This document shows positions 4,695 through 60,745 of a DNA stretch of 64,000 nucleotides, in pieces (the first letter of the stretch is position 1; every line of letters begins with the position of its first letter). Position numbers and translations under genes: made by a program. The DNA is from Siphonodentalium dalli (lineage: Eukaryota; Mollusca; Scaphopoda; Gadilida; Siphonodentaliidae): contig CP136061.1 of assembly GCA_032622095.1 (NCBI GenBank), forward strand, positions 237,880,609-237,944,608. Reading direction: 5' to 3'. The notes under the pieces were generated by a model. It had not been told where the DNA came from. It worked only from the letters and a program-made list of their open reading frames with translations, and made no database searches.

Positions 4695-5555
4695 TTAACG
4701 TTTATTTCTGACCAATTATAAAATATTATTTCTGGTCTCTGTTAACAGTAACAACTATGGTTCGTTAGCTAAACAACCACACGTTTTAGACCAGAAACTA
4801 TTCGAAATATAATCAATAGTAATCGATAGAAGCAATTCCGGATACGGGTCTTCGGTTAATATCTTATATTTTATACCCCGGTAACTATATCACACATGTT
4901 TACAACGAGATAGACCACCTTTAAACTTGACTTTCAAGTCGAGCTAAAAATGTTAGAATTAATTACGAAAATATACTTAGCGGGCCCCTGGACCTGGAGT
5001 AACATCATGTCTGGATTATCGCGAAACGCGCTGTCTGGATTCCGGCTCGACGCAACTTTGTTGCATGGTGGGAAACGAGTTATATTTTTAGTTTATACTG
5101 GCGGGTTTTCCCATACGGTATATTTAGAACAAGGAAACTGGTGAAATTGTTGTGCAACTAAATTTTACGAGGAATGAATATGCCAAATGTTCAACATTAA
5201 CAGCATATATAAAGGTAAGATACTTCCCGTGAGTGCTTTGTTTTTGCTGATCTCTTATCTGCGAACATAAACTTAGGCGTATCGACTCGTATTCGATAGT
5301 CATATTTAAAATATCAACATATTTCAGACCCGGAACCGAAACTAATTATATGTAATTTATTACCTTGGCTAGAACAACGAAAACGGCGCTTTTTAGGCCG
5401 TCGCCTGGGGCACCAAAGAAACAGAAATCACTGACTTTTAGACCACTATTTATAGATTATCTGGTGAGTTATAATCTATAACTCCCTGGATAATCTTTAA
5501 TTCTAAAAGTGGCATAAAAGTAAGTTATTGCAGCCTCCGTGGTTTCATGCATGGA
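4695..5555. other. no gene recognised
   Basis: The open frame at 4950-5144 (64 codons) has no recognisable domain, and the flanks lack splice sites that would extend it. I treat it as chance. Confidence 0.35.
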
Positions 5556-5639: not shown

Positions 5640-6300
5640 CCACAGTACATGTAATTTAACTATGAGTTTATAGTAAACTATAGTATTACTATATTATAGT
5701 ATGCTATAGTCCAGTATTACTATAGTATAATGTGAAAGGGTCACTCTCACACAAAAAAGTGCTGAAGGGTACACAGGTTTTGAAAATGTGCTGAAGGGTA
5801 CACAGGGTTTGTGATCGGTACTAATGCAGTTACTGTAACTGTGTTCCCGAAAGTCTGGCGCCCATCAGCAGTTCGTATTCAGTTCAGTTTAATTTTCCTT
5901 GGAACATACACTATTATTCTCTAACAGAAATCATGGCAGACACGAAAACTAAAAGTCATTTAGGAGAGGGGGTACCCATAAGTGAGTTAGCTCTTGTCCT
6001 CCAATCCCATTGTCTGTATAAAAAATGTATGTGTTATATATCATGTGTTATATAAATTAGACAAATAAATATGTTTAAACTAAAAGTCATTTAGAACGAT
6101 ATTTCAAAACCTGCGTACCATTCAGCACGTTTTCAAAAACTGTATCACAGTAAATATAAGTGTACTATGGTACTTCCCATAATACTACTGTGATATACCA
6201 TGGTATACTATAACACCTAGTAAAATGCCCTTTTATCGCTGTAAGGTATGATGGTTTACTATGAAAACTGAGGTATTGTACCATTCTCTCACTGTGTATA
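5640..6300. repeat. TACTATAG-word region
   Basis: AT-rich, with the same ACTATAG/TAGTACC/TACCATGG words as 2525-2810, plus a short tandem of GTGCTGAAGGGTACACAGG at 5760-5810. The weak exon candidate at 5934 lies inside. Confidence 0.4.
5934..5981 (+). other. possible orphan first coding exon (weak)
   Basis: An ATG with an acceptable start context is followed by 16 sense codons and then a very good splice donor (ATAA|GTGAGT). The encoded start is MADTKTKSHLGEGVPI. I cannot find the next exon, and the word AAACTAAAAGTCATTTAG is repeated 130 bp downstream, so part of this may be repeat-derived. Recorded only as a weak candidate. Confidence 0.15.
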
Positions 6301-35200: not shown

Positions 35201-37888
35201 TCAAGTCGATAGCTCCACCCGTTTCCGAGATCTGGTCTGCGCATGCGCGAAGCTGGCGTCGCACGGGCTCGGCGACCCGATAAAATTCGTATCCGGGGCA
35301 AGATACATTCACATACCAAATTTCAAGTCGATAGCTCCACCCGTTTCCGAGATCTCGTCTGCGCATGCGCGAAGCGGGCGTCGCACGGGCCCGCCAATAC
35401 GACAACGTCCACCGTCTGGTCAAACTACAAACACGTACCAATTTCGTCCCGATCGGTCGAGAATCGTAGATTTGTATAAATGACAAACAAACATACAGAC
35501 AAACAAACATACAGACAGAGGTCTTTAAAATATATGAGATACTAGCCGATGAGCCCGACGTTGTCCGGGCTATTCAAAAACCAAATTTCAAGTCGATAGC
35601 TCTACCCAGCCCGACGTTGTCCGGGCTATTCAAAAACCAAATTTCAAGTCGATAGCTCAACCAGTTTCCGAGATCTGGTCTGCGCATGCGCGAAGCTGGC
35701 GTCGCACTGGCTCGGCTACCCGATAAAATTCGTATCCGGGGCAAGATACATTCACATAGCAAATTTCAAGTCGATAGCTCCACCCGTTTCCGATATCTCG
35801 TCTGCGCATGCGCGAAGCGGGCGCCACACGGGCTCGCCAATACGACAGCGTCCACCGCCTGGTCAAACTACACACACGTACCAAGTTTGGTTCCGATCGG
35901 TCGAGAATCGTAGATTTGTATAAATGACAAACATACAGACAAACATACAGACAAACATACAGACAGAGGTCTTCAAAATATATATGAGACTAGCCGATGA
36001 GCCCGACGTTGTCCGGGCTATTCAAAAACCAAATTTCAAGTCGATAGCTCCACCCGTTTCCGCGATCTGGTATGCGCGTGCGCGAAGTCTGCGCATGCGC
36101 GAAGCTGGCGTAACACGGGCTCGGCGACCACATAAAATTCGTATCCGGGGCAAGATACATTCACATACCAAATTTCAAGTCGATAGCTCCACCCGTTTCC
36201 GAGATCTGGTCTGCGCATGCGCGAAGCTGGCGTCGCACGGGCTCGGCGACCCGATAAAATTCGTATCCGGGGCAAGATACATTCACATACCAAATTTCAA
36301 GTCGATAGCTCCACCCGTTTCCGAGATCTCGTCTGCGCATGCGCGAAGCGGGCGTCGCACGGGCCCGCCAATACGACAACGTCCACCGTCTGGTCAAACT
36401 ACAAACACGTACCAATTTCGTCCCGATCGGTCGAGAATCGTAGATTTGTATAAATGACAAACAAACATACAGACAAACAAACATACAGACAGAGGTCTTT
36501 AAAATATATGAGATACTAGCCGATGAGCCCGACGTTGTCCGGGCTATTCAAAAACCAAATTTCAAGTCGATAGCTCTACCCAGCCCGACGTTGTCCGGGC
36601 TATTCAAAAACCAAATTTCAAGTCGATAGCTCAACCAGTTTCCGAGATCTGGTCTGCGCATGCGCGAAGCTGGCGTCGCACTGGCTCGGCTACCCGATAA
36701 AATTCGTATCCGGGGCAAGATACATTCACATAGCAAATTTCAAGTCGATAGCTCCACCCGTTTCCGATATCTCGTCTGCGCATGCGCGAAGCGGGCGCCA
36801 CACGGGCTCGCCAATACGACAGCGTCCACCGCCTGGTCAAACTACACACACGTACCAAGTTTGGTTCCGATCGGTCGAGAATCGTAGATTTGTATAAATG
36901 ACAAACATACAGACAAACATACAGACAAACATACAGACAAACATACAGACAGAGGTCTTCAAAATATATATGAGACTAGCCGATGAGCCCGACGTTGTCC
37001 GGGCTATTCAAAAACCAAATTTCAAGTCGATAGCTCCACCCGTTTCCGCGATCTGGTATGCGCGTGCGCGAAGTCTGCGCATGCGCGAAGCTGGCGTAAC
37101 ACGGGCTCGGCGACCACATAAAATTCGTATCCGGGGCAAGATACATTCACATACCAAATTTCAAGTCGATAGCTCCACCCGTTTCCGAGATCTGGTCTGC
37201 GCATGCGCGAAGCTGGCGTCGCACGGGCTCGGCGACCCGATAAAATTCGTATCCGGGGCAAGATACATTCACATACCAAATTTCAAGTCGATAGCTCCAC
37301 CCGTTTCCGAGATCTCGTCTGCGCATGCGCGAAGCGGGCGTCGCACGGGCCCGCCAATACGACAACGTCCACCGTCTGGTCAAACTACACACACGTACCA
37401 ATTTCGTCCCGATCGGTCGAGAATCGTAGATTTGTATAAATGACAAACAAACATACAGACAAACAAACATACAGACAGAGGTCTTCGAAATATATGAGAT
37501 ACTAGCCGATGAGCCCGACGTTGTCCGGGCTATTCAAAAAACAAATTTCAAGTCGATAGCTCTACCCAGCCCGACGTTGTCCGGGCTATTCAAAAACCAA
37601 ATTTCAAGTCGATAGATCTACCAGTTTCCGAGATCTGGTCTGCGCATGCGCGAAGCTGGCGTCGCACGGGCTCGGCGACCCGATAAAATTCGTATCCGGG
37701 GCAAGATACATTCACATAGCAAATTTCAAGTCGATAGCTCCACCCGTTACCGAGATCTCGTCTGCGCATGCGCGAAGCGGGCGCCGCACGGGCTCGCCAA
37801 TACGACAACGTCCACCGCCTGGTCAAACTACACACACGTACCAAGTTTCGTCCCGATCGGTCGAGAATCGTAGATTTGTATAAATGAC
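32220..37888 (+). mobile_element. left arm of a 13-kb inverted HINE-like repeat array
   Basis: From the common flank (CTATCATTACAAACACAGGG, 32235) the arm contains three family G units (32339-32880, 32881-33662, 33663-34445) and a run of 122-bp-core elements starting at 34446, 35015, 35541, 35989, 36515, 36975 and 37501. All point to the right. The reverse complement of this arm makes up 37889-41325 and again 41400-45260. No frame here is a gene; all are translations of the repeats. Confidence 0.75.
35015..37500 (+). repeat. tandem triplication, units of 974, 986 and 526+ bp
   Basis: Copies start at 35015, 35989 and 36975. The second unit differs from the first chiefly by one extra 12-bp microsatellite step (ACAGACAAACAT). 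Near identity implies very recent amplification. The third copy runs into a different element at 37501. Confidence 0.8.
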
Positions 37889-41400: not shown

Positions 41401-44400
41401 CATTTATACAAATCTACGATTCTCGACCGATAGGGACGAAACTTGGTACGTGTGTGTAGTTTGACCAGGCGGTGGACGTTGTCGTATTGGCGAGCCCGTG
41501 CGGCGCCCGCTTCGCGCATGCGCAGACGAGATCTCGGAAACGGGTGGAGCTATCGACTTGAAATTTGCTATGTGAATGTATCTTGCCCCGGATACGAATT
41601 GTATCGGGTCGCCGAGCCCGTGCGACGCCAGCTTCGCGCATGCGCAGACCAGATCTCGGAAACTGGTAGAGCTATCGACTTGAAATTTGGTTTTTGAATA
41701 GCCCGGACAACGTCGGGCTGGGTAGAGCTATCGACTTGAAATTTGGTTTTTGAATAGCCCGGACAACGTCGGGCTCATCGGCTAGTATCTCATATATTTT
41801 GAAGACCTCTGTCTGTATGTTTGTTTGTCTGTATGTTTGTTTGTCATTTATACAAATCTACGATTCTCGACCGATCGGGACGAAATTGGTACGTGTGTGT
41901 AGTTTGACCAGACGGTGGACGTTGTCGTACTGGCGGGCCCGTGCGACGCCCGCTTCGCGCATGCGCAGACGAGATCTCGGAAACGGGTGGAGCTATCGAC
42001 TTGAAATTTGGTATGTGAATGTATCTTGCCCCGGATACGAATTTTATCGGGTCGCCGAGCCCATGCGACGCCAGCTTCGCGCATGCGCAGACCAGATCTC
42101 GGAAACGGGTGGAGCTATCGACTTGAAATTTGGTATGTGAATGTATCTTGCCCCGGATACGAATTGTATGTGGTCGCCGAGCCCGTGTGACGCCAGCTTC
42201 GCGCATGCGCAGACTTCGCGCACGCGCATACCAGATCTCGGAAACGGGTGGAGCTATCGACTTGAAATTTGGTTTTTGAATAGCCCGGACAACGTCGGGC
42301 TCATCGGCTAGTCTCATATATATTTTGAAGACCTCTGTCTGTATGTTTGTCTGTATGTTTGTCTGTATGTTTGTCATTTATACAAATCTACGATTCTCGA
42401 CCGATCGGATCCAAACTTGGTACGTGTGTGTAGTTTGACCAGGCGGTGGACATTGTCGTATTGGCGAGCCCGTGCGGCGCCCGCTTCGCGCATGCGCAGA
42501 CGAGATATCGGAAACGGGTGGAGCTATCGACTTGAAATTTGGTTTTTGAATTGCCCGGACAACGTCGGGCTGGGTAGAGCTATCGACTTGAAATTTGGTT
42601 TTTGAATAGCCCGGACAACGTCGGGCTCATCGGCTAGTCTATTATATATTTTGGAAGATCTGTTTGTTTGTTTGTGTGTGTGTAATCGATGAACTCGAAA
42701 ACGGCCGACCCGATTTCGATGAAACTTGGTATGTGGGGGTATTTTCGGGTCAGGAGTAACATAGGCCTATTGATTTTCAGATCCGAGGTCAACTTTTCAC
42801 GTGCCGAGGTCAAATCTGTTTTTACGCTGTGTTACGGGACTTTCATTTGAGTTCGGTGCTTACAAATCGATTCGAAACAGCGCGAATAATAAAAAGCCAG
42901 TCATAATAATGACACTGTGAGAATCTTTCGTGTTTCCTCTTTCCAACGATATATAATGCGTATGTATCCGTTTTAGTTATCTGCCTCAATTATCAAGAAG
43001 AAGTGGTACTATCTTCCATCAGGATAAAAACAATGCGTAACTTCTATGACGTCGTTAGAGGTCATAAAGTTAGATCACGTTAACGCTTAACCTGCCGATG
43101 CATTTGACTGTTTCAGACGTCTTGGCGATATCTCGGGCACCGATGGTAATTTATCTTTAAGTTGAAACTTGATAATTAATGAGCGTGTGTATATGAGGCG
43201 CGTTTATATACTTGAGTGGAAATCAAATCGGGTTAAACTGGCGGATTTTTACGGACGAAATTTGATGCATAGGGTATCTCGGTATCCGCTGGGCCGATTT
43301 CCCGGTATCCGCTGGGCCGATTTCCACCATTTTTGGGGTGTTGGTGTTTGACCCCACCTGACCTTGACCTTCAAAATGGTCAATTCAAGGTCAAAGCCCG
43401 GACGAAGTCGGGTCATCTTCTAGTCTATTATATATTTTGGAAGATCTGTTTGTTTGTTTGCTTGTGTGTAATCGATGAACTCGAAAACGGCCGACACGAT
43501 TTCGATGAAACTTGGTATGTGGGGGTATTTTCGGCCGGGGGTGATATAGGCCTACTGATTTTCAGATCCGATGTCAACTTTTCACGTGCCGAGGTCAAAT
43601 CTGTTTTTACGCTGTGTTACGGGACTTTCATTTGAGTTCGGTGCTTACAAATCGATTCGAAACAGCACGAATAATAAAATGCCAGTCATAATAATGACAC
43701 TGTGAGAATCTTTCGTGTTTCCTCTTTCCAACGATATATAATGCGTATGTATCCGTTTTAGTTATCTGCCTCAATTATCAAGAAGAAGTGGTACTATCTT
43801 CCATCAGGATAAAAACAATGCGTAACTTCTATGACGTCGTTAGAGGTCATAACGTTAGATCACGTTAACGCTTAACCGGCCGATGCATTTGACTGTTTCA
43901 GACGTCTTGGCGATATCTCGGGCACCGATGGTAATTTATCTTTACGTTGAAACTTGATAATTAATGAGCGTGTGTATATGAGGCGCGTTTATATACTTGA
44001 GTGGAAATCAAATCGGGTTAAACTGGCGGATTTTTACTGACGAAATTTGATGCATAGGGTATCTCGGTATCCGCTGGGCCGATTTCCCGGTATCCGCTGG
44101 GCATATTTCCACCATTTTTGGGGTGTTGGTGTTTGACCCCACCTGACCTTGACCTTCAAAATGGTCAATTCAAGGTCAAAGCGCGGACGAAGTCGGGTCA
44201 CCATCTTCCATCAGGATAAAAACAATGCGTAACTTCTATGACGTCGTTAGATATCATAACGTTAGATCACGTTAACGCTTAACCGGCCGATGCATTTGAC
44301 TGTTTCAGACGTCTTGGCGATATCTCGGGCACCGATGGTAATTTATCTTTACGTTGAAACTTGATAATTAATGAGCGTGTGTATATGAGGCGCGTTTATA

Positions 44401-45340
44401 TACTTGAGTGGAAATCAAATCGGGTTAAACTGGCGGATTTTTACGGACGAAATTTGATGCATAGGGTATCTCGGTATCCGCTAGGCCAATTTCCCGGTAT
44501 CCGCTGGGCCGATTTCCACCATTTTTGGGGTGTTGGTGTTTGACCCCACCTGACCTTGACCTTCAAAATGGTCAATTCAATGTCAAATCGGGTAAAACCG
44601 GATGGATTTCGACGGGTACTTTTGTCGGGTACTTTTGTTCGGGCACTGTGTTTTGGACGGGTCAAATCGTGACCCCACTTGACATTGGCCTTCAAAATAG
44701 ACAATTCAAGGTCAAAGCCCGGACGAAGTCGGTGACCTTCTAGTACTATATGTATATAGAAAAAGTTACAACGATGCAATGTGACGAATAATCAAGTAGA
44801 TAGATACATTTTATTTATAAGTCGGAGGTAAAACCCACAAACACATACTATGAAGAGCTTTTGACCGACTGTATAAGGATAAATATAGTTTATATGTCGT
44901 TCATGTCTGACAATCTCCGGTGATTTGCATCACCGATTGTGGTTGTGACTACATTGGGTCAATGTGCATGGCTATATGTTTATGACTATATATGGTGTCA
45001 ATGTGTATGGCTATATGTTTATGACTATATATGGTGTCAATGTACATGGCTATAGGTTTATCACTATATGTGGTGTCATTGTGCATGGCTATAGGTTTAT
45101 GACTATATATGGTGTCAATGTGCATGGTTATACGTTTATGACTATATTTGGTGTCAATGTGCATATGTCCGATAGTAGTTATTGTTATAAGTGTTCCCGG
45201 ATCTAGGATACACTTCCTTTCCCCTGTGTTTGTAATGATAGGGTTAATTGTATAGATAAACACACAGACAAACATACAGACAAACATACAGACAAACATA
45301 CAGACAGAGGTCTTCAAAATATATATGAGTCTTGTCATTT
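41401..45340 (-). mobile_element. right arm, second copy (tandem duplication of ~3.5-3.9 kb)
   Basis: Equivalent points are offset by 3528 bp in the first part (39641 and 43169) and 3935 bp in the second part (40426 and 44361). The difference is one extra ~407-bp family G segment (43800-44210) that is present in the left arm and missing from the first right-arm copy. Sequence identity is very high. Confidence 0.8.
44953..45160. repeat. 39-bp minisatellite, copy 2
   Basis: Same array as 41018-41225, offset by 3935 bp and with the same internal variants, so it was duplicated as part of the large block. Confidence 0.9.
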
Positions 45341-46302: not shown

Positions 46303-46308
46303 GATTTG
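46303..46308 (+). repeat. 6-bp target-site duplication, left (GATTTG)
   Basis: Part of CGTAGATTTGTATAAATGAC of the host HINE-like repeat. The same six bases follow the element at 58486-58491, after which the host repeat continues with TATAAATGAC. Confidence 0.85.
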
Positions 46309-47560
46309 AGAAGAATAGATGTCTCGTTACCCCCACATCTAAAAATAGAATTTGTGGGTCTAAAATTGGTTGTACTAAAATATTCCCAAAATATCAAAAC
46401 CCAAAAAAAAATTCAAAACTTCCAAAATTTATTTTTTCCAAAAAATTTCAAAAACCCAAAACTTCCAAAAAATTTCAAAACCCCAAAATTTCAAAAAAGA
46501 AAAAATTTCAAAACCCCCCAAAATTATTTCTCTAAAAAAAAAGTTTAAATAAAAAATTTATAACGAGTTTTCGGTTTCTGATAATCTCGATATTAAAAAA
46601 TGTCGAATGTTTATTAAAATTATTTGCGTGTAATATCTTTCGTTATTTTTTTTGTTCAAATATTTTTCATGAAATTATTAATCGATGTTTAGAAATAGCT
46701 TTATTGGACATTGTGACCATCGGTATGAATGCATACATTCCAGTGTTTATCGGACGCAGTTCATACATATATAATTGTCATACCTGAAAATAGACACCAT
46801 TACTCTTACATAAATAATAAAGAGCGTTTATTCTTAACTTCTCTATCCCAGATGAAGTTATTGAGTATATGACAGGTGTGTATTATCGTGAATTATTGGA
46901 AGTATTGAGATGTACTATCTTGAATCACGAGTGGACGAAAAGGGTAATGTGAAATTACAACCCCCAGAATGAATTGTCATATTCGATGGAACATATTATG
47001 TACAAGTAATCACACACGACATTGTGGGTAACAATGTGTCTTTCACACCTTGCTTTACCAAATGAATTCTATTATATTCCCGTTCACAGTTATATGCTGT
47101 TCAGAAAACATATCGATTTAATGTCTGAGCAGAATTAGTTGTTTAACGGGTTAGTATTAATTAAGGTTGATAAACTGTGTCATTGTTAGCATTAACACGA
47201 TAATTAGTTATCCAAAACATGCATACATATTACGTCCAGGTCGTGAGACACTCAATTATAGAAATTGCTTCGGTGTCATTGTTATAACAACATTACGTAA
47301 TAACCACTTATCACTCCATTCACACTTACGATCATTTTTTATACCGAAAACTCCAGTTAGCACCGATGATGTAACATTATATCACTGCTATTGTATCAGT
47401 TGATAGGTTCAGACAAGTTCGATGTTTAGAAAATAGATAATGTGCAGGTGTTCACTTGACAAGAGATTTTGTACACTCAATCACAGACCAACGTGATAAT
47501 ACCAGCCCAAATCCGATGTTTATCAAAAATAGTACAACTTCCAGTTGGTAATTACTCTTA

Positions 47561-48108
47561 CGAATGAAGAGCGTTGAACATATACGAAATTATTACACGA
47601 ATGAACTGAAATTTATATTTCACATCTTACCAACAACAGATACAGACATAGTCATAGTGTTATACTATCTTACATGTACCCATGCTATGACATCATTCGA
47701 AGGGGCAATACACTCAAGGAGTTAAAGTGACACGAAACAAGGGACGTGATGTAATATTGGTGTATGAATCTTAAAGGAACACAAGACACTCTAAAGGGAC
47801 ACTCATTATGAAGGAATGTTAACAATACAAGCGCACGAATGAAGAGCGTTGAACATATACGAAATTACTACACGAATGAACTGAAATTTATATTTCACAT
47901 CTTACCAACAACAGATACAGACATAGTCATAGTGTTATATTATCTTACATGTACCCATGCTATGACATACTTAAAGGGGGATAATGCACACACGGTGTGT
48001 GGAATGTTAAAGTGACACGAGGTAAGGGACGTTATGTAATATTGGTGTGTGAATATTAAAGGAGCATTCTCGCTATACAAACCCCCCTCCCCACTTATAG
48101 ATATATAA
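47561..48108. repeat. ~275-bp tandem duplication within the arm
   Basis: CGAATGAAGAGCGTTGAACA through ATGCTATGACAT is present at 47561 and again at 47836, followed in both by AAAGTGACACGA and GTAATATTGGTGT blocks. The mirror image is at about 56500-57050. Both copies lie downstream of the ATPase gene. Confidence 0.8.
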
Positions 48109-48147
48109 CGAAGACGAGAATAACATGTTGATGAAGTTTATTGAAAT

Positions 48148-49687
48148 TTAATCATTGTCTGAATCTTCGACCGTTAGATTTACTTCTAAGAGTTTCTTGA
48201 ATTTTCTCATCGCTTCATCTGCAGCCCATTCATTATTATATCCGCGTTTGGTCAGTTTGACCATTTTCTTCATGATCGTGTTATGTATGGGTGATGTTTT
48301 CAATCGATACTGGTATTCTATTAATCGTCTATAACTTTTGAGAAACAGAACAAACTCTGTGTCGATGGTATCCTCTTTTCCCGACATGCTCTCATCTCCC
48401 GAAATGCTCTCTTCTTCTTTCACATCATTGGTGACGCGTTTCATCATACTTTTGAATGTGTCCATCTCGTTGACACATCGCGCAGCTTTCTTAAGACCGA
48501 ATACCGTTCTACTACCGACGACATTACCATCTTTTGAATCTGATAGCGTTCCCCGTTCATCTTCATCTGTATCTTCTCCGAAGAGAGTTGTTTTTGTCTC
48601 GGACATAGCTCCGTGTTCATCCGGGTCCTCAGTTAATTTTCGTTTTAACTTATTTTCTTGACACCAGTTTTTTACGTGTCTCTGAACATCATAATGATCT
48701 GCGAACAAAAGCCCGCATTCATTACAAGGGTACGACATGTCTTCTCGAATGTTTTGACGGTTCTTCTTATTAATTTCATCGAGCTCACCAGGTGGCCGTA
48801 TGTCGTTAGTATAGTCATTATGTTGACCCTGGGGCACAATATAATTATATGTTATGCCCTTCTGTTGACCAGGGAGTTCTCTGTCATCGTATTTCATCGC
48901 ATTCTGTTGACCCTGGGTCTCAGTGTCTTTTGTATGTTTTTTCATCCCATTCTGTTCATCTGGGTGTTCTCTGTCTTTTTGGAGATTATATTTCATGCCA
49001 TTCCATTCACCCCTATGTTGGTTCGTGTCCTCTTTTAGTACATTCTGTCGCAGACGTAATGTGTCCGGTGTTGCGGCTTTTAAATCCACCAGTAGGTAAC
49101 CGTACGGTTCACTCGTCGCTTCCGAAAACTCTCGAACCATACGCTGAGGACATTCAGGATACATCTGTCTTGATAATGTTGAAATTAATCCCTTGTCGAT
49201 TGGGTTATTGAACAATACCAAATATTGACAATTTCGTCGTTGCGTTGGATCTTTGTTGTAGTAGAAATTCTGGTTCAAACTTATCAAAGATAAGTTCAAA
49301 TGGTGACTTCCTTCGGAATGCAAATCATTAACTCTCTGGTCTTTTGATGAAGTTTGCATCAAGTCATCGAGTATAACTAGATTTTTATACCGGGGGTTGA
49401 TAAGCGAATCCAAGTTTGCTGGTATTCCTCGTATAAAGTTGACCTGAGGGGTGACGGTATACTTTAATTCGTCATATAGGGGCTGCCAATATTTATAAAA
49501 CCATATTATTCTGTCAGGTGCGGGTGATATTTTTGAGGCAGACTTTTGTAGTAAGGTTTTCACGAAGTATGTCTTACCACAAGATGTCGGTCCACTTACA
49601 CATGCCGTGAATGGATGCTTGAAAATAAAATCTTCATGGACATTGGCCATTGGATCATCAAAGCAGGATGTTATGTCGCTTGGTGGC

Positions 49688-49721
<34 letters not shown>

Positions 49722-49882
49722 GGGGTGATGATACTGTTGTTGTTGTTGTTGTTGTTGTGGCTGATGATACTGTTGTTGTTGTTGTTGTTGTTGTTCTGAA
49801 GGCGTGTGTTTAACTTTGATATGACGCTTCAAACTATCTTGCCAAGCATAGACACTTAAGCACTCTCACATTGATACTTCAT
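48148..49882 (-). pseudogene. A32/FtsK-type packaging-ATPase-like gene, left copy (5-prime frameshift)
   Basis: A 500-codon frame (49650 down to 48148) begins at an internal ATG. Residues 20-27 are the Walker A motif GPTSCGKT and 91-97 the Walker B LVILDDL. Residues 213-290 are a degenerate Q/G repeat (DEQNGMKK, QGQQNAMKY, PGQQKGITY). Residues 308-330 form a zinc-finger-like CX2C...HX3-5C motif, followed by an acidic linker and a basic C-terminus. Upstream, the N-terminal C2H2 finger and polyglutamine tract are out of frame because one base is missing near 49866 relative to the right copy. TTTATT (complement of AATAAA) lies 6 bp past the stop. The ATPase fits the packaging NTPases of Polintons and related dsDNA viruses; the family call is inferred from motifs and element type. 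Confidence 0.65.
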
Positions 49883-50379
49883 TTAACTAGTTCAGGCTGT
49901 CGTTCACAACGTCTCTGAGGCCCGTTCCAAACGACGGATTTTTGTCGACTCGAATCTAATACCAGACCCACAATTGTATTAAATGCGTCTAAAATGCGAC
50001 GTTTGAAACAATTAGATCCGTGTCAGACGCACCACAGACGAATCTCCGTCCAATTCAGACGAATCTTCGTCGGTGATGCGTCTGAAATCCGTCTTGGTTT
50101 CAAACGACGGATTTTTGTCGACTCGAATCTAATACATGTGACGAGAAGAGCCGAAAGTTGCCGAATAACGAATGCAAATGATATGATAATGATATGATAA
50201 TGACATAATAATGAGGGAGTTCCCCTTATCTGCGGAAATACCCACATGACGTCATTTGTCGCACGCTCTCTTTGTTATAAAGAAAGATATATCTATAAGA
50301 ATTGCTTAGGTAACATTGTGAAAATTGTAATTATTATGGTAGTTTGATTTCTCAACGAACATGGCATGTCACTGACTCA

Positions 50380-50930
50380 CATCTTATAATGGATATAGTA
50401 TCAATGATTTATAAAAAATCATATATACCGGTATAAGGGATATGGGTTGTAGCAACTGATTTATACTAATTCATATATACCGATGTTCCTTATTGTAAGG
50501 GAAAGGGGTGGTAGTCTCTGATGTATAATAATGAATATATACCGGTATTACTTATTATAAGGGATATGGGTGGTACCACTGATTTATAATAATTCATATA
50601 TACCGGCATTACTTGTTTTGAGGGGTATATGGGTGGTAACCTCTTATTTATAATAATTCATATATTCCGGTATTCCTTATTATAAGGGGCAGAGTGGTAG
50701 CCTCAGATTTATAATAATTCATATAAACCGGTATTACTTATTATGAGGGGTAGGGATAGTATAGCCTATGATTTATAATAACTCATATATACCGGTATTC
50801 CTTATTATAAAGGATATAGGGTGGTAGCCTATGATTTATAATAATTAATTTATTCCGGTATTCCTTATTATAAGGGGTAGGGGTGGTAGTCTCTGATTTA
50901 TAATAATTCTTGTATACCGGTAATTACATG
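50380..50930. repeat. ~60-bp AT-rich minisatellite in Harbinger-like element 1
   Basis: About nine units of the form GATTTATAATAATTCATATA, then CCGGTATTNCTTATTATAAG, then a GGGTAGGGGTGGTAGCCTCT-type end. Each unit varies by a few bases or small indels. Confidence 0.8.
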
Positions 50931-51044
50931 CATGGTATACACATAGATGGCAATTTGTTGCACGATATAACATTTATTTGTAGCGCCTATTATAGTATAT
51001 TATATATCTGTATGTACTAGTCTATATACATCCTCATATACATG

Positions 51045-52170
51045 CAGAGACGTGGCGACAGGGGGGGTTGGGTGTCTCACCCCCGCCCCCAACTTTGGTA
51101 AAAATGTTCAACAGTTGGAAATTTCATACCTGCCAAAACATTAGTTGGAAATTTCACACCAACAATAGGTTGAAAATGTTCTTGTAGTTTGATTTTCAAA
51201 CAATTTATTGGGGGGAATTAATTGTTTTTGGACCAATATTTGCGTATTTTCCTATTTTTGGTCAAAATTTTGGAATGAAATTGTCATCAGTTGGAAATTT
51301 TCCAACCTTAGGGGGGGGCGACAGGCTGGAAATTTCCAACACTTGGAAAGCTTGTGTCCTGGTCCCTCCCCCGTGGCCAGTCAAAAACTGCTAGATAATT
51401 TAAGAAAACAATATTGTCATACATTTGGTCAGCATTGTCATTGCAATTGTCATCAGTTGGAAATTTTCCAACCTAAGTGTGGATGTCAGGTTTGAAATTT
51501 CCAACTCTAGGAAGGCTTGATGCTAGTCTAGATGGTAGGATTTTGCGATTTTCTTGTTCAGATTTCAAAATTTTAGCACACCGGGCCGAACCATGGTCGG
51601 CCCGGTGTGTCATTGTCCCCGTGGCCAATAAAAAACTGCTAATTAGTTTAACAAAACAATATTTTACTACATTTGGTCAAACTTGTGGACTGAAATGGTC
51701 ATCAGTTGGAGAATTTTCCAACCTTAGGGGGAGTATTAGGTTTGAAATTTCCAACACTATAGGAAAACTTCAGTTGAGGCCAGTCTAGATGCTATAGAAT
51801 TTGCGATTTTCTTGTATAGTTTTAAGAAATTTTCTCACACCGGGCGGAACAACCATGGTCAGCCCGATGTGCCCTGATCTGTTGCCCGTAGCCGTGTGCA
51901 ATTGTCTGGAGTTAGACCACTAGATGTTAGGATTTATGCAATTTTTCAGGTTAAAATATCTGAATGTTCTCATACAGGGGAATTTAGAACCATGGTTTAT
52001 GAATATATAGGATATTAGGCCTGAGAGCACTGAGGTGTAAGGGGGGGGGATGCAAATGGAAATTATGCAAAACTTGTGTTTGGTCCGAATCTTATTCAAG
52101 GGGGTGGGGTGCAGTTGGAATTTCCCAAGGTGGACACCCCCCCAACGGAGACCCTATAGCCACGTCCCTG
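51045..52170 (+). mobile_element. hAT-like non-autonomous element (1126 bp) nested in Harbinger-like element 1
   Basis: Terminal repeats CAGAGACGTGGC and GCCACGTCCCTG with an exact 8-bp duplication TATACATG (51037-51044 and 52171-52178). Element 2 supplies the unoccupied site (CATCCTCATATACATATGCACAT at 53788), confirming the borders. 8-bp duplications and CAGNG ends define hAT. The interior has no transposase, only GTTGGAAATTT modules. Relatives lie at 7288, 20533, 59816 and 61089. Confidence 0.85.
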
Positions 52171-52467
52171 TATACATGAGCACATAAATTCGCGCGCTGC
52201 AGTCGCGCATATATATATACATAATTTATACTGTATTTTAGTATATATATGTATAACATATACCGGTATATATAGGCCTCTATATCTACGCGTGATCATT
52301 TTTGACGGTAACCGGGAATCCACATTTAAATAAATCTAACGATGTATTAGATTCGACGCGACAAAGATGCGTCCGTCTGTAACAAAATCGACCGCAGACG
52401 CATCAACGACGGATTTAATACAATTAGATTCGAGTCGACAAAAATCCGTCGTTTGGAACGGGCCTGA

Positions 52468-54078
52468 GGCCCGTTCCAAACGACGGATTTTTGTCGACTC
52501 GAATCTAATACCAGACCCACAATTGTATTAAATGCGTCAAAAATGCGACGTTTGAAACAATTAGATCCGTGTCAGACGCATAACAGACGAATCTCCGTCC
52601 AATTCAGACGAATCTTCGTCGGTGATGCGTCTGAAATCCGTCTTGGTTTCAAACGACGGATTTTTGACGACTCGAATCTAATACATGTGACGAGAAGAGC
52701 CGAAAGTTGCCGAAGAACGAATGCAAATGATATGATAATGATATGATAATGGATAATAATGAGGGGGCTCCCCTTATCTGAGGAAATACCCACATGACGT
52801 CATTTGTCGCACGCTCTCTTTGTCATAAAGAAAGATATATCTATAAGCATAGCTTAGGTAACATTGTGCAAATTGTAATTATTTTGGTAGTTTGATTCCT
52901 CAACGAACATGGCATGTCACTGACTCACATCTTATAATGGATATAGTATCAATGTTTTAGAATAATCCATATATACCGGTATAATGGGTAGGGGTTGTAG
53001 CAACTGATTTATAATAATTCATATAAACCGATATTCCTTATTGTAAGGAATAGGGGTGGTAGTCTCTGATGTATAATAATTAATATATTTACCGGTATTA
53101 CTTATTATAAGGGGCAGAGGTGGTACTTCTGATTTATAATAATTCATATATACCGATATTACTTATTATGAGGGGTAAAGGGGTGGTAACCTCTTATTTA
53201 TAATAATTCATATATTCAGGTATTACTTGTTATAAGGGGCAGAGTGGTAGCCTATGATTTATAATAATTTATATATACCGGTATTCCTTATTATAAGGGG
53301 TAGGGGTGGTAGCCTCAGATTAATAATAATTCATAAAAACCGGTATTACTTAGTATGAGGGGTAGGGATGGTAGCCTATGATTTATAATAATTCATAGAT
53401 ACCGGTATTCCTTATTATAAAGGATATATAGGTGGCAGCCTATGATTTATAATTTATAATTAATATATTCCGGTATTCCTCATTATAAGGGGTAGGGGTG
53501 GTACCACTGATCTTATTTATAATAATTCATATATACCGGTATTACTTATTATGAGGGGCATAGGGGTGGTAACTTCTTATTTAGAATAATTCATATATTC
53601 CGGTATTCCTTATTATAAGGGTAGGGGTGGTAGTCTCTGATTTATAATAATTCTTGTATACCTGTATTTACATGCATGGTATACACATATATGGCAATTG
53701 GATGCACGATCTAACATTTATTTGTAGCGCCTTTTATATTTTATTATATTATATTATATAACTATATGTACTATAAACATCCTCATATACATATGCACAT
53801 ATATTCGCGCTGCAAGCACGCATATATTTATACATAATTTATATACTGTATTTTAGTATATATATGTATAACATACCGGTATATATAGGCCTCTATATCT
53901 ACGCGTGACCATTTTGTGAAGGTAACATGGAGTACACCTTTAAATAAATCGACCGATGTATTAGATTCGACACGACAAAGATGCGTCCGTCTGAAACAAA
54001 ATTGGCCGCAGACGCATCACCGACGGATTTAATACAATTAGATTCGAGTCGACAAAAATCCGTCGTTTGGAACGGGCC
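52468..54078. mobile_element. PIF/Harbinger-like non-autonomous element 2 (1611 bp)
   Basis: Same ends, same internal ~60-bp minisatellite (52925-53680) and same 3-prime region as element 1, without the hAT insertion. It is preceded by TGA and followed by TTA. The two elements abut with only TGA between them, as expected from tandem duplication or insertion at the same site. Confidence 0.75.
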
Positions 54079-54080
54079 TT

Positions 54081-54685
54081 AGTGTTGTTTGTACTGGATA
54101 CAAATTTATCACATTAGCTACAATACAACCTACCTATCCAAATGTCAATGCAATTATGAGTGATTTCAATATGAACACTCTATTATATAGATATGTGTAA
54201 CCTGGTGACTGACATGATGATACAGTTATGCACTAAATAATGGACTGCTTAACCACAGCAGAATTATAGGTAACTTTTCAGGAGTTAGTCGGAAATATGG
54301 CTTGTTGCCATTCATCGGAAAGCTCTCGCCGCCGGCGGATGTTGTCGGCGGATGTTGTTGGCGGCGGCATTGCGGTATTTTACTGCGGCGGCGGTGCCGC
54401 CGCCGCCAACAACATCCGCCGACAACATCCGCCGGCGGCGAGAGCTTTCCGATGAATGGCAACAAGCCATATTTCCGACTAACTCCTGAAAAGTTACCTA
54501 TAATTCTGCTGTGGTTAAGCAGTCCATTATTTAATGCATAACTGTATCATCATGTCAGTCACCAGGTTACACATATCTATATAATAGAGTGTTCATATTG
54601 AAATCACTCATAATTGCATTGACATTTGGATAGGTAGGTTGTATTGTAGCTAATGTGATAAATTTGTATCCAGTACAAACAACAC
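54081..54685. mobile_element. 605-bp near-perfect palindromic element
   Basis: It begins GTGTTGTTTGTACTGGATAC and ends with the complement, flanked by TA on both sides (54079-54080 and 54686-54687 within slight boundary uncertainty). The whole element folds on itself around a GC-rich core of GCCGCC/GGCGGC words at 54345-54420. The identical peptides on the two strands here are a consequence of the palindrome. A TA duplication is the mark of Tc1/mariner-type insertion, but no transposase is present. Confidence 0.75.
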
Positions 54686-54721
54686 TAAGAGACGTTGTGA
54701 ACGACAGCCTGAACTAGTTAA

Positions 54722-54884
54722 ATGAAGTATCAATGTGAAGAGTGCTTAAGTGTCTATGCTTGGCAAGATAGTTTGAAGCGTCATATCAAAGTTAAACACA
54801 CGCCTTCAGAACAACAACAACAACAACAACAACAGTATCATCAGCCACAACAACAACAACAACAACAACAGTATCATCACCCCC

Positions 54885-54918
<34 letters not shown>

Positions 54919-56460
54919 GCCACCAAGCGACATAACATCCTGCTTTGATGATCCAATGGCCAATGTCCATGAAGATTTTATTTTCAAGCATCCATTCACG
55001 GCATGTGTAAGTGGACCGACATCTTGTGGTAAGACATACTTCGTGAAAACCTTACTACAAAAGTCTGCCTCAAAAATATCACCCGCACCTGACAGAATAA
55101 TATGGTTTTATAAATATTGGCAGCCCCTATATGACGAATTAAAGTATACCGTCACCCCTCAGGTCAACTTTATACGAGGAATACCAGCAAACTTGGATTC
55201 GCTTATCAACCCCCGGTATAAAAATCTAGTTATACTCGATGACTTGATGCAAACTTCATCAAAAGACCAGAGAGTTAATGATTTGCATTCCGAAGGAAGT
55301 CACCATTTGAACTTATCTTTGATAAGTTTGAACCAGAATTTCTACTACAACAAAGATCCAACGCAACGACGAAATTGTCAATATTTGGTATTGTTCAATA
55401 ACCCAATCGACAAGGGATTAATTTCAACATTATCAAGACAGACAAATCCTGAATGTCCTCAGCGTATGGTTCGAGAGTTTTCGGAAGCGACGAGTGAACC
55501 GTACGGTTACCTACTGGTGGATTTAAAAGCCGCAACACCGGACACATTACGTCTGCGACAGAATGTACTAAAAGAGGACACGAACCAACATAGGGGTGAA
55601 TGGAATGGCATGAAATATAATCTCCAAAAAGACAGAGAACACCCAGATGAACAGAATGGGATGAAAAAACATACAAAAGACACTGAGACCCAGGGTCAAC
55701 AGAATGCGATGAAATACGATGACAGAGAACTCCCTGGTCAACAGAAGGGCATAACATATAATTATATTGTGCCCCAGGGTCAACATAATGACTATACTAA
55801 CGACATACGGCCACCTGGTGAGCTCGATTAAATTAATAAGAAGAACCGTCAAAACATTCGAGAAGACATGTCGTACCCTTGTAATGAATGCGGGCTTTTG
55901 TTCGCAGATCATTATGATGTTCAGAGACACGTAAAAAAAACTGGTGTCAAGAAAATAAGTTAAAACGAAAATTAACTGAGGACCCGGATGAACACGGAGC
56001 TATGTCCGAGACAAAAACAACTCTCTTCGGAGAAGATACAGATGAAGATGAACGGGGAACGCTATCAGATTCAAAAGATGGTAATGTCGTCGGTAGTAGA
56101 ACGGTATTCGGTCTTAAGAAAGCTGCGCGATGTGTCAACGAGATGGACACATTCAAAAGTATGATGAAACGCGTCACCAATGATGTGAAAGAAGAAGAGA
56201 GCATTTCGGGAGATGAGAGCATGTCGGGAAAAGAGGATACCATCGACACAGAGTTTGTTCTGTTTCTCAAAAGTTATAGACGATTAATAGAATACCAGTA
56301 TCGATTGAAAACATCACCCATACATAACACGATCATGAAGAAAATGGTCAAACTGACCAAACGCGGATATAATAATGAATGGGCTGCAGATGAAGCGATG
56401 AGAAAATTCAAGAAACTCTTAGAAGTAAATCTAACGGTCGAAGATTCAGACAATGATTAA
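54722..56460 (+). pseudogene. A32/FtsK-type packaging-ATPase-like gene, right copy (stop and frameshift)
   Basis: Unlike the left copy, this one keeps the N-terminus in frame: a C2H2 finger (C5, C8, H21, H26), a polyglutamine tract encoded by CAA repeats broken by YHQP and YHHP, then the ATPase domain with GPTSCGKT and LVILDDL. It is broken at 55829-55831, where TAA replaces the GAA of the left copy (369 codons read). A second lesion at 55933-55940 has eight A where the left copy has six, shifting frame before the C-terminal zinc-finger region. The 152-codon frame at 56002-56460 is the remaining C-terminus. AATAAA overlaps 56466-56471, 6 bp after the stop, a compact virus-like ending. Confidence 0.65.
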
Positions 56461-58128
56461 ATTTCAATAAACTTCATCAACATGTTATTCTCGTCTTCGT
56501 TATATATCTATAAGTGGGGAGGGGGTTTGTATAGCGAGAATGCTCCTTTAATATTCACACACCAATATTACATAACGTCCCTTACCTCGTGTCACTTTAA
56601 CATTCCACACACCGTGTGTGCATTATCCCCCTTTAAGTATGTCATAGCATGGGTACATGTAAGATAATATAACACTATGACTATGTCTGTATCTGTTGTT
56701 GGTAAGATGTGAAATATAAATTTCAGTTCATTCGTGTAGTAATTTCGTATATGTTCAACGCTCTTCATTCGTGCGCTTGTATTGTTAACATTCCTTCATA
56801 ATGAGTGTCCCTTTAGAGTGTCTTGTGTTCCTTTAAGATTCATACACCAATATTACATCACGTCCCTTGTTTCGTGTCACTTTAACTCCTTGAGTGTATT
56901 GCCCCTTCGAATGATGTCATAGCATGGGTACATGTAAGATAGTATAACACTATGACTATGTCTGTATCTGTTGTTGGTAAGATGTGAAATATAAATTTCA
57001 GTTCATTCGTGTAATAATTTCGTATATGTTCAACGCTCTTCATTCGTAAGAGTAATTACCAACTGGAAGTTGTACTATTTTTGATAAACATCGGATTTGG
57101 GCTGGTATTATCACGTTGGTCTGTGATTGAGTGTACAAAATCTCTTGTCAAGTGAACACCTGCACATTATCTATTTTCTAAACATCGAACTTGTCTGAAC
57201 CTATCAACTGATACAATAGCAGTGATATAATGTTACATCATCGGTGCTAACTGGAGTTTTCGGTATACAAAATGATCGTAAGTGTGAATGGAGTGACAAG
57301 TGGTTATTACGTAATGTTGTTATAACAATGACACCGAAGCAATTTCTATAATTGAGTGTCTCACGACCTGGACGTAATATGTATGCATGTTTTGGATAAC
57401 TAATTATCGTGTTAATGCTAACAATGACACAGTTTATCAACCTTAATTGATACTAACCCGTTAAACAACTAATTCTGCTCAGACATTAAATCGATATGTT
57501 TTCTGAACAGCATATAACTGTGAACGGGAATATAATAGAATTCATTTGGTAAAGCAAGGTGTGAAAGACACATTGTTACCCACAATGTCGTGTGTGATTA
57601 CTTGTACATAAAATGTTCCATCGAATATGACAATTCATTCTGGGGGTTGTAATTTCACATTACCCGTTTCGTCCACTCGTGATTCAAGATAGTACATCTC
57701 AATACTTCCAATAATTCACGATAATACACACCTGTCATATACTCAATAACTTCATCTGGGATAGAGAAGTTAAGAATAAACGCTCTTTATTATTTATGTA
57801 AGAGTAATGGTGTCTATTTTCAGGTATGACAATTATATATGTATGAACTGCGTCCGATAAACACTGGAATGTATGCATTCATACCGATGGTCACAATGTC
57901 CAATAAAGCTATTTCTAAACATCGATTAATAATTTCATGAAAAATATTTGAACAAAAAAAATAACGAAAGATATTACACGCAAATAATTTTAATAAACAT
58001 TCGACATTTTTTAATATCGAGATTATCAGAAACAGAAAACTCGTTATAAATTTTTTATTTAAACTTTTTTTTTAGAGAAATAATTTTGGGGGGTTTTGAA
58101 ATTTTTTCTTTTTTGAAATTTTGGGGTT

Positions 58129-58314
58129 TTACATGGGCCCTGAATAAATTTGAGTTTAATATCAAATATCTAAGGTACTGTGGAAAAAAACAACCCTGGG
58201 GTCTTTGCAGATACTCAGGATACTATACAGATGTCATAGCTGAAAAGAACCGATCCATCCTTTATCACCCTAAAGTGGTTCATAAGGAAATTGCTGAATT
58301 TTAATCGTGGTCAA
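58129..58314 (+). mobile_element. ~186-bp insertion in the right arm
   Basis: It interrupts GGGGTTTT|GAAATTTTTTGG, which is continuous in the left arm. It reads from ACATGGGCCCTGAATAAATT to GAATTTTAATCGTGGTCAA. An inverted, nearly identical copy is at 59328-59513. No obvious terminal repeats or tail. Confidence 0.7.
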
Positions 58315-58485
58315 TTTGAAATTTTTTGGAAGTTTTGGGTTTTTGAAATTTTTTGGAAAAAATAAATTTTGGAAGTTTTGAAAAAAAATTTGGGTTTTGA
58401 TATTTTGGGAATATTTTAGTACAACCAATTTTAGACCCACAAATTCTATTTTTAGATGTGGGGGTAACGAGACATCTATTCTTCT

Positions 58486-58575
58486 GATTTGTATAAATGA
58501 CAAACATACAGACAAACATACAGACAAACATACAGACAAACATACAGACAGAGGTCTTCAAAATATATATCAGAT
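58486..58575 (+). mobile_element. right remnant of the HINE-like repeat split by the Polinton-like element
   Basis: It begins with the second GATTTG, continues TATAAATGACAAACATACAG, has the CATACAGACAAA microsatellite and ends GGTCTTCAAAATATATATCAG, which is exactly what is missing from the copy ending at 46302. Confidence 0.85.
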
Positions 58576-59327: not shown

Positions 59328-59513
59328 TTGACCACGATTAAAATTCAGCAATTTCCTTATGAACCACTTTAGGGTGATAAAGGATGGATCGGTTCTTTTC
59401 AGCTATGACATCTGTATAGTATCCTGAGTATCTGCAAAGACCCCAGGGTTGTTTTTTTCCACAGTACCTTAGATATTTGATATTAAACTCAAATTTATTC
59501 AGGGCCCATGTAA
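59328..59513 (-). repeat. inverted twin of the 186-bp insertion
   Basis: The reverse complement of 58129-58314, from TTGACCACGATTAAAATTC to GGGCCCATGTAA. The two copies flank about 1 kb containing the arm end, the HINE-like remnant and family B copy 2. Confidence 0.75.
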
Positions 59514-60745
59514 ATTTTAAGGTGATAAGTATTCATTTTCTAGACAAAAAGAACAGCAATTGAGTTGGTATTATATTTTGCTTTCTCTTTGGAGCCCAAT
59601 ATCATAATATAATCATGCATGGATCTGGTGAATGGGGCGGGGTTTCTCCCCAAAGTTGTGGGGCTTGTGGGTGCAATTGGAAATTTCAAGGTGGACACCC
59701 CTCCCCATATCAAGGGAGATCATCTAGCCTGCGGAACTAACTGCACGGAACATTAATTCCTTTACAGAAATAAATACCTGAACTTTCTTGTAAACTTGAG
59801 TGCAGAGACATGGCGACAGCGGGGGGGTGGGGGGTGGGGTGTCTCACCGCTACATCTGTTTAACATATCCATTGCTTGGCTTTGATAGGTTAAAAGTTGA
59901 AATTATTGCGCTCAACATATAGCAGCAACAGCATGCAACTGGTGCATATAAGATGTTAAATTATCCAGCTGGTTACTACTTACTTACTTACATTTTGGGT
60001 ATTGTGGGGGACACACAATCAATGAAGGAAAAGTAAGGGTACATAATACAGAAGGCATTTTCACAATGTCATCACAAACATTCAATTGTACCGGTGCTGG
60101 CACAGGACAAGGAGAGCTTATAGATGCCTATAAATAAATCAATGGGAATCAAGAAGAACTGAAGTATGTTTCCAGTTATCGGCTGCTAATGATAAAGTGC
60201 TTAAAATAAGGAAACAATGAGATCATGAAATTCCACCTTCCAACGTTCATATAAATGGGAAGGGGAGACAGCTTAATTTGTCACTAACATTACCACATTA
60301 TTGAACTGTGTAGCTTAATCATCCATCCATATGCCCTATCACTAACTCGCGGCCATTTTGGATCCACCAGGTCCGGTTCCGTGGTTTTACTTAAAGTGGT
60401 GTGAAACACTCCGGTAGGGTGATCAAATAGAAATGGAGAATAATCTTGCTCAAAGTAGTTATTTTTACGAATATTAATCCAAACTGACAACACACACCGT
60501 CATTCTGATATATTAATTAAATGCAACGACCCTCGATGTCGAAATCATTTGTGTGTGTTTGTCGTCGATAGTTGCGTCCCGAATCGAGATGTAAATATTT
60601 ACAATCGAGCGTTGTTCACTGAGACGATGTTTTATATGGAGTGGTATGGTCAATTTCTTTGAAATTGTCGGCGATGTTAGTACAATGCTACATTCCCCAG
60701 GTTATCAGTTTCACGCACCCGAACAAGTCCATAATATGTCTTTAA
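59514..60745. other. no gene; hAT-family end fragments
   Basis: 59640-59730 (GGTGCAATTGGAAATTTC, then AAGGTGGACACCCC) is the right part, and 59816-59860 (CAGAGACATGGCGACAG, then GGGGTGTCTCACC) a left end, of the hAT-like family. The rest is AT-rich with no coding signal; the minus-strand frame 60290-60493 has no recognisable domain. Confidence 0.4.

Follow-up and report, generated by a model that had tools for sequence, protein, structure and literature searches.

What kind of Polinton-like element consists of almost nothing but two inverted arms, and how would such an element move? The question arises at positions 46309-58485 of the window (the whole 64,000-nucleotide stretch of Siphonodentalium dalli DNA analysed here), where a palindromic element has been inserted precisely. 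Its termini read AGAAGAATAG...CTATTCTTCT (AG...CT), and a target-site duplication, GATTTG (no strand assigned), is exact on either side (left copy 46303..46308, right copy 58486..58491). The joined flanks align at 97% over 133 bp with an empty-site homologue at 36843-36975, the junction being spanned. These borders are as described in a first-pass annotation, which had explained the element as a one-off fossil, the snap-back genome of one Polinton end.

The inverted arms are about 3.9 kb long and near-identical, reaching 100% identity in three blocks (1615, 1058 and 594 bp), and the element contains 7264 inverted 20-mers against a mean of 0.05 in 20 mono-nucleotide shuffles. Its form, a palindrome with a 30-nt centre, is disguised by a 4.2-kb insertion in the left arm and one of about 184 bp in the right. 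The outer and middle part of the left arm occupies 46309..49918 (+ strand), its outer ~1.1 kb being close to the POL5 Polinton end; the innermost part resumes past the insertion at 54079..54368 (+ strand), where it matches uninterrupted family members. The right arm, delimited by inverted-repeat search and arm alignment, covers 54399..58485 (- strand). The left insertion (49919..54078, no strand assigned) is a tandem pair of MITE-like elements, one at 49919-52464 and one at 52468-54078, with inverted ends GGCCCGTTCC and TGA, TGA and TTA at the borders; the right insertion (58131..58314, - strand) has a 100% match, inverted, in host DNA at 59328-59514. The first-pass annotation had recognised the inverted arms, but the lengths that it gave, 3.6 and 3.8 kb, do not hold, since the left arm continues beyond the MITE pair.

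When the left arm (46309-49930) is aligned with the right, 3594 columns are identical and 21 mismatch. Five of the latter are at the edge of the MITE insertion, and the 16 left over represent, by our count, about nine events (an A/T run of 6 columns, a cluster of 3 columns and seven lone changes). Besides substitutions, the arms differ by a few 1-2-bp indels and by the additional right-arm DNA. The dyad (54369..54398, no strand) consists of 30 nt flanked by exact 20-nt arms, with a GTATTTTAC motif at 54375; its predicted fold has two small side hairpins, and by itself the 30-nt loop shows no stronger folding than shuffles do. Two other readings of the centre were rejected. One took 54080-54687 (~605 bp) as a separate foldback at the dyad; family members show this stretch to be the true centre. 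The other placed all nested insertions exactly centrally; family comparison leaves only the MITE pair as an insertion there.

Each arm carries one gene for a zinc-finger packaging ATPase, the two being arranged head-to-head. The left gene (48148..49882, - strand) is open over 48148-49650 (500 aa), with its first zinc finger frameshifted; the right gene (54722..56460, + strand) is open over 54722-55831 (369 aa), after which come a premature stop and an insertion of 2 bp. Assignment to the FtsK/HerA type is based on Pfam matches to Pox_A32 (8.4e-06 and 4.4e-06) and on fold matches, and it substantiates the packaging-ATPase-like genes of the first-pass annotation. Both ATPase copies are thus broken, and the window element is a decayed copy. 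Pfam revealed no polymerase among its frames, and neither polymerase nor integrase was found in it, in agreement with the earlier claim that it holds no other Polinton gene; three small frames in the outer arms gave no Pfam match. Homologues of the gene product number 543 in the search made, whereas a sequence search of PDB with the ATPase returned only four weak zinc-finger matches. Adenovirus IVa2 had no chain among the PDB entries listed in a second look, which bears neither way. The PHROGs search returned none, no relatives were found in viral_contigs or genome_contigs, and phage records gave no match.

The window element is one of many. In the same 2.2-Gb genome we read 16 further palindromic or palindrome-derived loci of 7.1-9.6 kb, 13 of which mirror themselves along their length. 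Family arms are 99.5-100% identical (ungapped columns only, the central 0.7 kb left out), AGAAGA stands at all ends listed, and exact 6-bp duplications flank all 15 palindromes that have both ends. Both ATPase copies are open in eight of the 12 ATPase-bearing palindromes. An inverted partner accompanied 10/10 further ATPase matches tested, and an inverted second copy was present at all 20 ATPase loci tested besides the window element. Ten of the loci read were picked for a 100% identical piece of the ATPase, so that their core identity and few arm differences are partly due to choice. Twenty-one terminal matches were unpaired, one being the window element and one L033; the remaining 19 are outside these counts. 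Among frames of at least 300 aa from Met, the 16 palindromes contain only the ATPase, with neither polymerase B nor integrase found, and one locus (L010) has no reading frame of at least 300 aa.

Long palindromes are hard to assemble, and an assembly artefact might be suspected. We give this next to no credence: the exact duplications lie at differing sites (the window element plus 15/15) with different flanks, an empty-site homologue exists, the two arms of the window element bear unlike insertions, and there are private differences.

Four canonical Polintons reside in the same genome, with polymerase B in 4/4, an rve-chromodomain integrase and an MCP-like protein, for which no PDB match was found by sequence; rve and Chromo occur only in long elements, not in palindromes. 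A 27-kb element with a run of N (LONG2) carries palindrome-type sequence and was left out of the Polinton count. The palindromes resemble Polintons (Mavericks) in their AG...CT ends, repeated terminal triplet, 6-bp duplications and packaging-type ATPase, and they have termini in common with these co-resident elements. They differ in that no polymerase, integrase or capsid gene was found in them and in bearing two copies of a different ATPase, 580-600 aa long with zinc fingers. The Polintons' own ATPase is 230 aa long and 31% identical, its frame being present in three of the four (POL1b has no ATPase frame of at least 150 aa among the frames listed). Judged by their sequences, the resident Polinton ATPase and the zinc-finger ATPase are different genes. 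PMC8097293 describes end motifs of vertebrate Mavericks and gives inverted repeats of 46-1,447 bp for intact elements, whereas those of the palindrome span the whole element.

A one-off defective snap-back genome, with the other palindromes derived independently from Polinton ends, would fit the symmetric arms and the outer sequence common with Polintons. Adenovirus has palindromic defective genomes. Snapback genomes are a major class of defective adeno-associated virus particles (PMC8235507). Like the palindrome, such genomes are self-complementary, with one parent-type end present twice. The full elements sharing the outer sequence that the first-pass annotation had proposed to look for are present in the same genome and carry ordinary terminal repeats; the four read do not have the arm at both ends, the zinc-finger ATPase arm being absent from them. 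Only the outer ~0.9-1.2 kb is common when the three ATPase palindromes L009, L012 and L028 are compared with the four, which does not support a snapback of one end of the resident Polintons. The inverted second copy at all 20 tested loci indicates that the mirrored ATPase was inherited, not re-made from Polinton ends, and what is found integrated here is a family in many copies, inherited and equipped with a gene of its own, not a transient defective product. The family contradicts the one-off fossil, and we regard the snap-back reading as very improbable.

The best match for palindrome ends is their own other end in 14 of the 16, yet the Polinton end variant that is matched differs among palindromes. 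The ends of the window element are not mutually nearest (1.13% between themselves vs 0.9% to POL5). For nine palindromes (L012, L014, L025-L028, L031, L032, L034) the four nearest ends include none from a Polinton, four Polintons having been sampled. Where both arms are open, they carry the same finger and tail variants of the ATPase. In eight elements, 4 of the codon differences between arms are synonymous and 6 are not, which gives no firm indication about selection.

Arm identity could instead stem from gene conversion after integration. An ordinary foldback transposon would have arisen through a single inverted duplication in a Polinton derivative and would move by integrase only, with chromosomal gene conversion and no hairpin stage; arms facing each other in the chromosome could mutually convert. 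FB, TU and Tetris are foldback or foldback-like transposons of this general sort; as in foldback transposons, inverted repeats form most of the palindromes, which are likewise non-autonomous and exchange terminal variants. Galileo of D. mojavensis is another, with long, variable, exchangeable terminal repeats and chimeric copies (PMC3573991, in the part available). The same text gives a 7-bp flanking duplication, which the 6-bp duplications of the palindromes do not match, and repeats that reach about 1.26 kb, the longest without a transposase frame. Here, by contrast, a whole half of ~4 kb is mirrored with an open gene in each arm, Polinton ends, full-length symmetry and a recurrent dyad motif. 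The symmetric end variants (14/16) and the agreement of finger and tail variants in both open arms also count against the foldback explanation, as do L028, L031, L032 and L034, whose 0-1 substitutions between arms allow only a short time for post-insertion conversion. We consider it rather unlikely.

The reading that we prefer, and think probable, is that the window element is one decayed member of a family of palindromic Polinton satellites, non-autonomous and present in many copies, which are mobilised in trans and pass through a self-complementary form. We infer the mechanism of movement and replication as follows. The integrase and polymerase B of resident Polintons would act in trans on the common ends, and the DNA would pass through a stage with its two arms paired together. 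One route would be hairpin formation by a displaced strand; the other would start from a monomer, Polinton-type at one end and hairpin-capped at the other, that is copied round the cap to give a head-to-head dimer. The palindrome would be the only form having the two inverted ends required by the integrase, and its arms would be kept identical by pairing and mismatch repair or by copying round the cap.

A GC-rich, hairpin-prone motif stands at the dyad in 13 of the 16 loci, and it folds easily because it is built of GGC/GCC triplets. Clean two-armed dyad folds are found in about five of the 16; several loops, that of the window element included, fold no better than shuffles, and in L028 the motif is absent and the centre is an unpaired 315 nt. 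The stem with two side arms predicted in some copies would be like the terminal hairpins of parvoviruses, but the palindrome's dyad is internal, in an integrated dimer, and no Rep-type gene was seen. We also weighed a flip/flop orientation of the cap but set it aside, since for a symmetric element this simply mirrors the strand that is read.

The satellite perhaps packages itself using its own ATPase, an FtsK/HerA-type enzyme that may direct its packaging into Polinton-made capsids. Satellites that hijack capsids include P4, PICI and virophages; by analogy, the palindrome would bring its own packaging function and rely on helper capsids, but it differs in its palindromic genome and in that hijacking is here a proposal drawn from sequence. 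More tentatively, the family may represent a satellite of a new kind, a linear Polinton parasite that is self-complementary and capped by a hairpin. Its monomer, with a protein-primed end and a cap, would yield the dimer as the sole form fit for integration, and its own zinc-finger motor, with swappable fingers and tails round a conserved core, would take over Polinton capsids; we rate this as possible and somewhat short of an even chance.

The palindromes might alternatively be segments of a segmented or multipartite Polinton, supplying a needed packaging ATPase (in subtype B, a relative of a capsid-adjacent gene) and not parasites at all. The ATPase genes are open in most ATPase-bearing copies, POL1b has no listed ATPase frame of at least 150 aa, and one frame of the subtype B palindromes L011 and L013 shares 70-75% identity, over ~95-102 aa, with the Polinton gene beside the MCP-like gene. 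However, three of the four Polintons have their own ATPase frame and L010 has no frame of at least 300 aa, and we think segmentation quite improbable.

In the portions of the literature accessible to our search, we found no description of end-to-end palindromic Polinton relatives. Polintons are regarded as viruses that take the form of transposons, and their particles have been hard to catch. A satellite that retains its own packaging motor, if true, would indicate indirectly that packaging is important in nature. Genome tolerance of kilobase-scale perfect palindromes, and the copying of self-complementary DNA in a protein-primed system, could also be studied in this family as a natural experiment. 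Gene models of Mytilus show the same ATPase joined to either an adenovirus-type protease or a chromodomain; outside this genome it may therefore be a gene of complete Polintons.

The element at 46309-58485 is a precise insertion with the termini AGAAGAATAG...CTATTCTTCT, flanked on both sides by GATTTG; a relative of the joined flanks lies uninterrupted at 36843-36975 (97% identity over 133 bp). The inverted arms described in the first-pass annotation are genuine: when 46309-49930 is aligned to the right arm (54399-58485), 3594 columns are identical and 21 mismatch, five of the latter lying at an insertion border and the remainder amounting to about nine events, and shuffling excludes a chance origin. 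A MITE-like pair (49919-54078, with TGA/TGA/TTA at the borders) splits the left arm, whose inner piece, 54079-54368, again mirrors the right arm, leaving 30 nt between the arms. That the stretch following the pair is a separate foldback was considered and rejected; it is the true centre of the palindrome. The pair consists of two related tandem elements with ends GGCCCGTTCC; the corresponding site of intact family members resembles the PIF/Harbinger extended target. The right arm carries an insertion of about 184 bp (58131-58314). Host DNA lying some 1 kb outside it (59328-59514) has the identical sequence in inverted orientation, and the insertion has the look of a repair event with a local template. 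Each arm possesses one gene, read from the centre outwards, encoding in order a C2H2 zinc finger, polyglutamine, a P-loop ATPase, a zinc finger and a tail. A frameshift disrupts the first finger of the left copy; the right copy contains a stop and a 2-bp insertion.

A search of the assembly to which the window belongs (2.23 Gb in 9 contigs) with the first 301 bp of the element gave at least 43 matches (40 of 2323 candidates scored). Eleven convergent pairs are among those listed: six of them, L009-L014, span 7.1-9.6 kb and the other five 15-27 kb. A further 21 matches are unpaired, including the window's own and one in L033; the remaining 19 were left out of the locus analysis. With a 621-bp piece of the ATPase gene all 40 scored matches (1008 candidates) were 100% identical. 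Twenty form 10 inverted pairs, read as L025-L034, loci thus selected by the identical piece; the other 20, one of them the window's, are unpaired, and reading 2 kb beyond each of ten others revealed an inverted partner in every case.

In 13 of the 16 loci read, self-complementarity extends over the length of the locus, in a single alignment for nine (96.5-99.2% identity, gaps counted) and in two arms or pieces for four. Arm identity in these 13, counting substitutions only and leaving out the central 0.7 kb or so, is 99.46-100%, and the arms of L032 show no substitution in 4101 columns. L009 and L014 are rearranged palindromes, the former 86.6% identical in a simple self-alignment and 98.9-100% across its three outer pieces, and L027 is without one end. 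All 15 loci with both ends have exact 6-bp duplications, every one different. Among 12 ATPase loci, both copies are open at 564-601 aa in eight, one copy in L030 and L033, and neither in L009 and L029.

Canonical Polintons account for four of the five long pairs (POL1a, POL1b, POL4, POL5); they have the same ends as the palindromes and terminal repeats of about 0.4-1.1 kb. All four contain DNA_pol_B_2 (POL5 3.4e-45, POL1a 6.7e-49, POL1b 1.5e-48, POL4 1.4e-33) and rve plus Chromo, the frame being split in POL4 with rve below the cut-off. A P-loop ATPase frame of 228-230 aa occurs in POL4, POL5 and POL1a; POL1b has none among its frames of at least 150 aa. The homologues of a 421-aa protein include bivalve "F54H12.2-like" proteins, a name we take to be a mark of Maverick capsid proteins; searches of Pfam and PDB gave no match. 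Databases assign Polinton ATPase and capsid-like proteins to bacterial symbionts in some entries (Sedimenticola MAG, Solemya velum gill symbiont); host contamination is the probable cause. In POL5 and POL1b a TBP gene (3.7e-32, 2e-30) adjoins a PC4 coactivator gene (4e-15, 3.4e-15), the pair lying at L036:1437-2587 (+) and L038:1172-2322 (-), and corresponding frames are listed for the other two Polintons (L035, L037); a narrow literature search including TBP found no paper. The fifth long pair, LONG2 (G000:C2:19630234-19657158; L023, L024, L039, L040), is 27 kb long and has the same ends, a stretch of N and sequence of the palindrome type; it may be a palindrome that contains insertions and an assembly gap. 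The 6-bp duplications are exact in POL5, POL1a, POL1b and LONG2, and off by one base in POL4.

The first-pass annotation read the element as the snap-back genome of one Polinton end. In L009, L012 and L028 the sequence in common with the Polintons is limited to the outer 0.9-1.2 kb or so, and the ATPase palindrome is therefore not a folded-over end of these four Polintons. Its ATPase is 31% identical to that of the Polintons (E 3e-30). L010, L011 and L013 have a further match to the Polintons, an end-like piece close to the dyad; L011 and L013 also carry a frame akin to the Polinton one beside the MCP-like gene. In this second subtype each arm has such a frame, 70-75% identical over about 95-102 aa (L011:4193-4648 and 5012-5491; L013:4067-4369 and 5724-6026). 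The end-like pieces are degenerate copies of the element's own terminus (about 78-80%), oriented like the outer end of that arm (L010:3513-3660 and 3986-4180; L011:4570-4763 and 4897-5090). L011 also has a zinc finger fused to the ATPase tail, the core being absent.

Intact vertebrate Mavericks are described as having two gene modules, their repeats measuring 46-1,447 bp (PMC8097293), and one survey reports Mavericks in all its mollusc genomes (PMC10294476). Galileo is described as having long, exchangeable repeats of up to about 1.26 kb (PMC3573991), and snapback genomes as a major category of defective adeno-associated virus particles (PMC8235507). No paper on palindromic Polinton satellites was found in the literature searched.

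When 1.1 kb of each end was aligned, the two ends of a palindrome were mutually nearest in 14 of 16 cases (0-0.66% different), the exceptions being the rearranged L014 and the window (1.13%, against 0.9% to POL5); the nearest other elements differ by 0.4-9.2%. Besides the window, palindrome ends lie near Polinton ends in L013 (POL1b, 0.5%), L033 (POL1a/b, 1.2-1.3%) and L010 (POL4, 1.7%), and L011 is near LONG2 (0.7%); nine others have no end of the four sampled Polintons among their four nearest. The ATPase gene also shows swaps, with two first-finger and two tail variants around one core, and the variant is identical between arms wherever both are open. The cores of the two arms do not differ in seven of 13 elements; in the other six, differences are private states only in five, and L029 has one shared state. 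Because of the mutually nearest ends, the matching variants and the core differences together, the data suggest that the arms were alike at integration and that changes had been copied to both. A stage at which the arms of the DNA are paired would be expected to give this pattern; alternatively, the likeness may come from chromosomal gene conversion. We infer a satellite that borrows Polinton integrase and polymerase via the shared ends, its palindrome being made and maintained by a self-complementary intermediate. We hypothesize that its ATPase hijacks capsids.

In 13 of 16 loci a GC-rich motif containing GTATTTTAC/GTAAAATAC is situated no more than about 170 nt from the midpoint. In L013 it sits at about +300, next to a long triplet repeat; none was found in L014 or L028. 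In the window it lies at 54375, with one other occurrence in the 64 kb (14384). It is absent from all 12 Polinton pieces, occurs once in LONG2 and, by eye, is common to palindromes whose inner arms are of three different kinds. The predicted DNA fold at the centre of L009, L013, L030, L031 and L032 is a stem with two side hairpins. The shape is reminiscent of parvovirus ends. In loop-only folding of 16 loops (window included, L014 left out), seven (L009, L025, L026, L030, L031, L032, L034) beat all 200 shuffles, partly through the stem; for the other nine, the window's included, 1-198 of 200 shuffles fold equally well or better. Hairpins come cheaply given the triplet composition of the dyad.

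Left of the element, the host repeat array contains large inverted repeats (32317-34619 and 42465-44766; 2.3 kb at 99.2%), which show up as a reversal of base skew near 38 kb. An HSPA12-like (HSP70 family) open frame of 361 aa, stop to stop, occupies 24082-25167 (+); its best-scoring relative is 41% identical, and the named relatives are bivalve.
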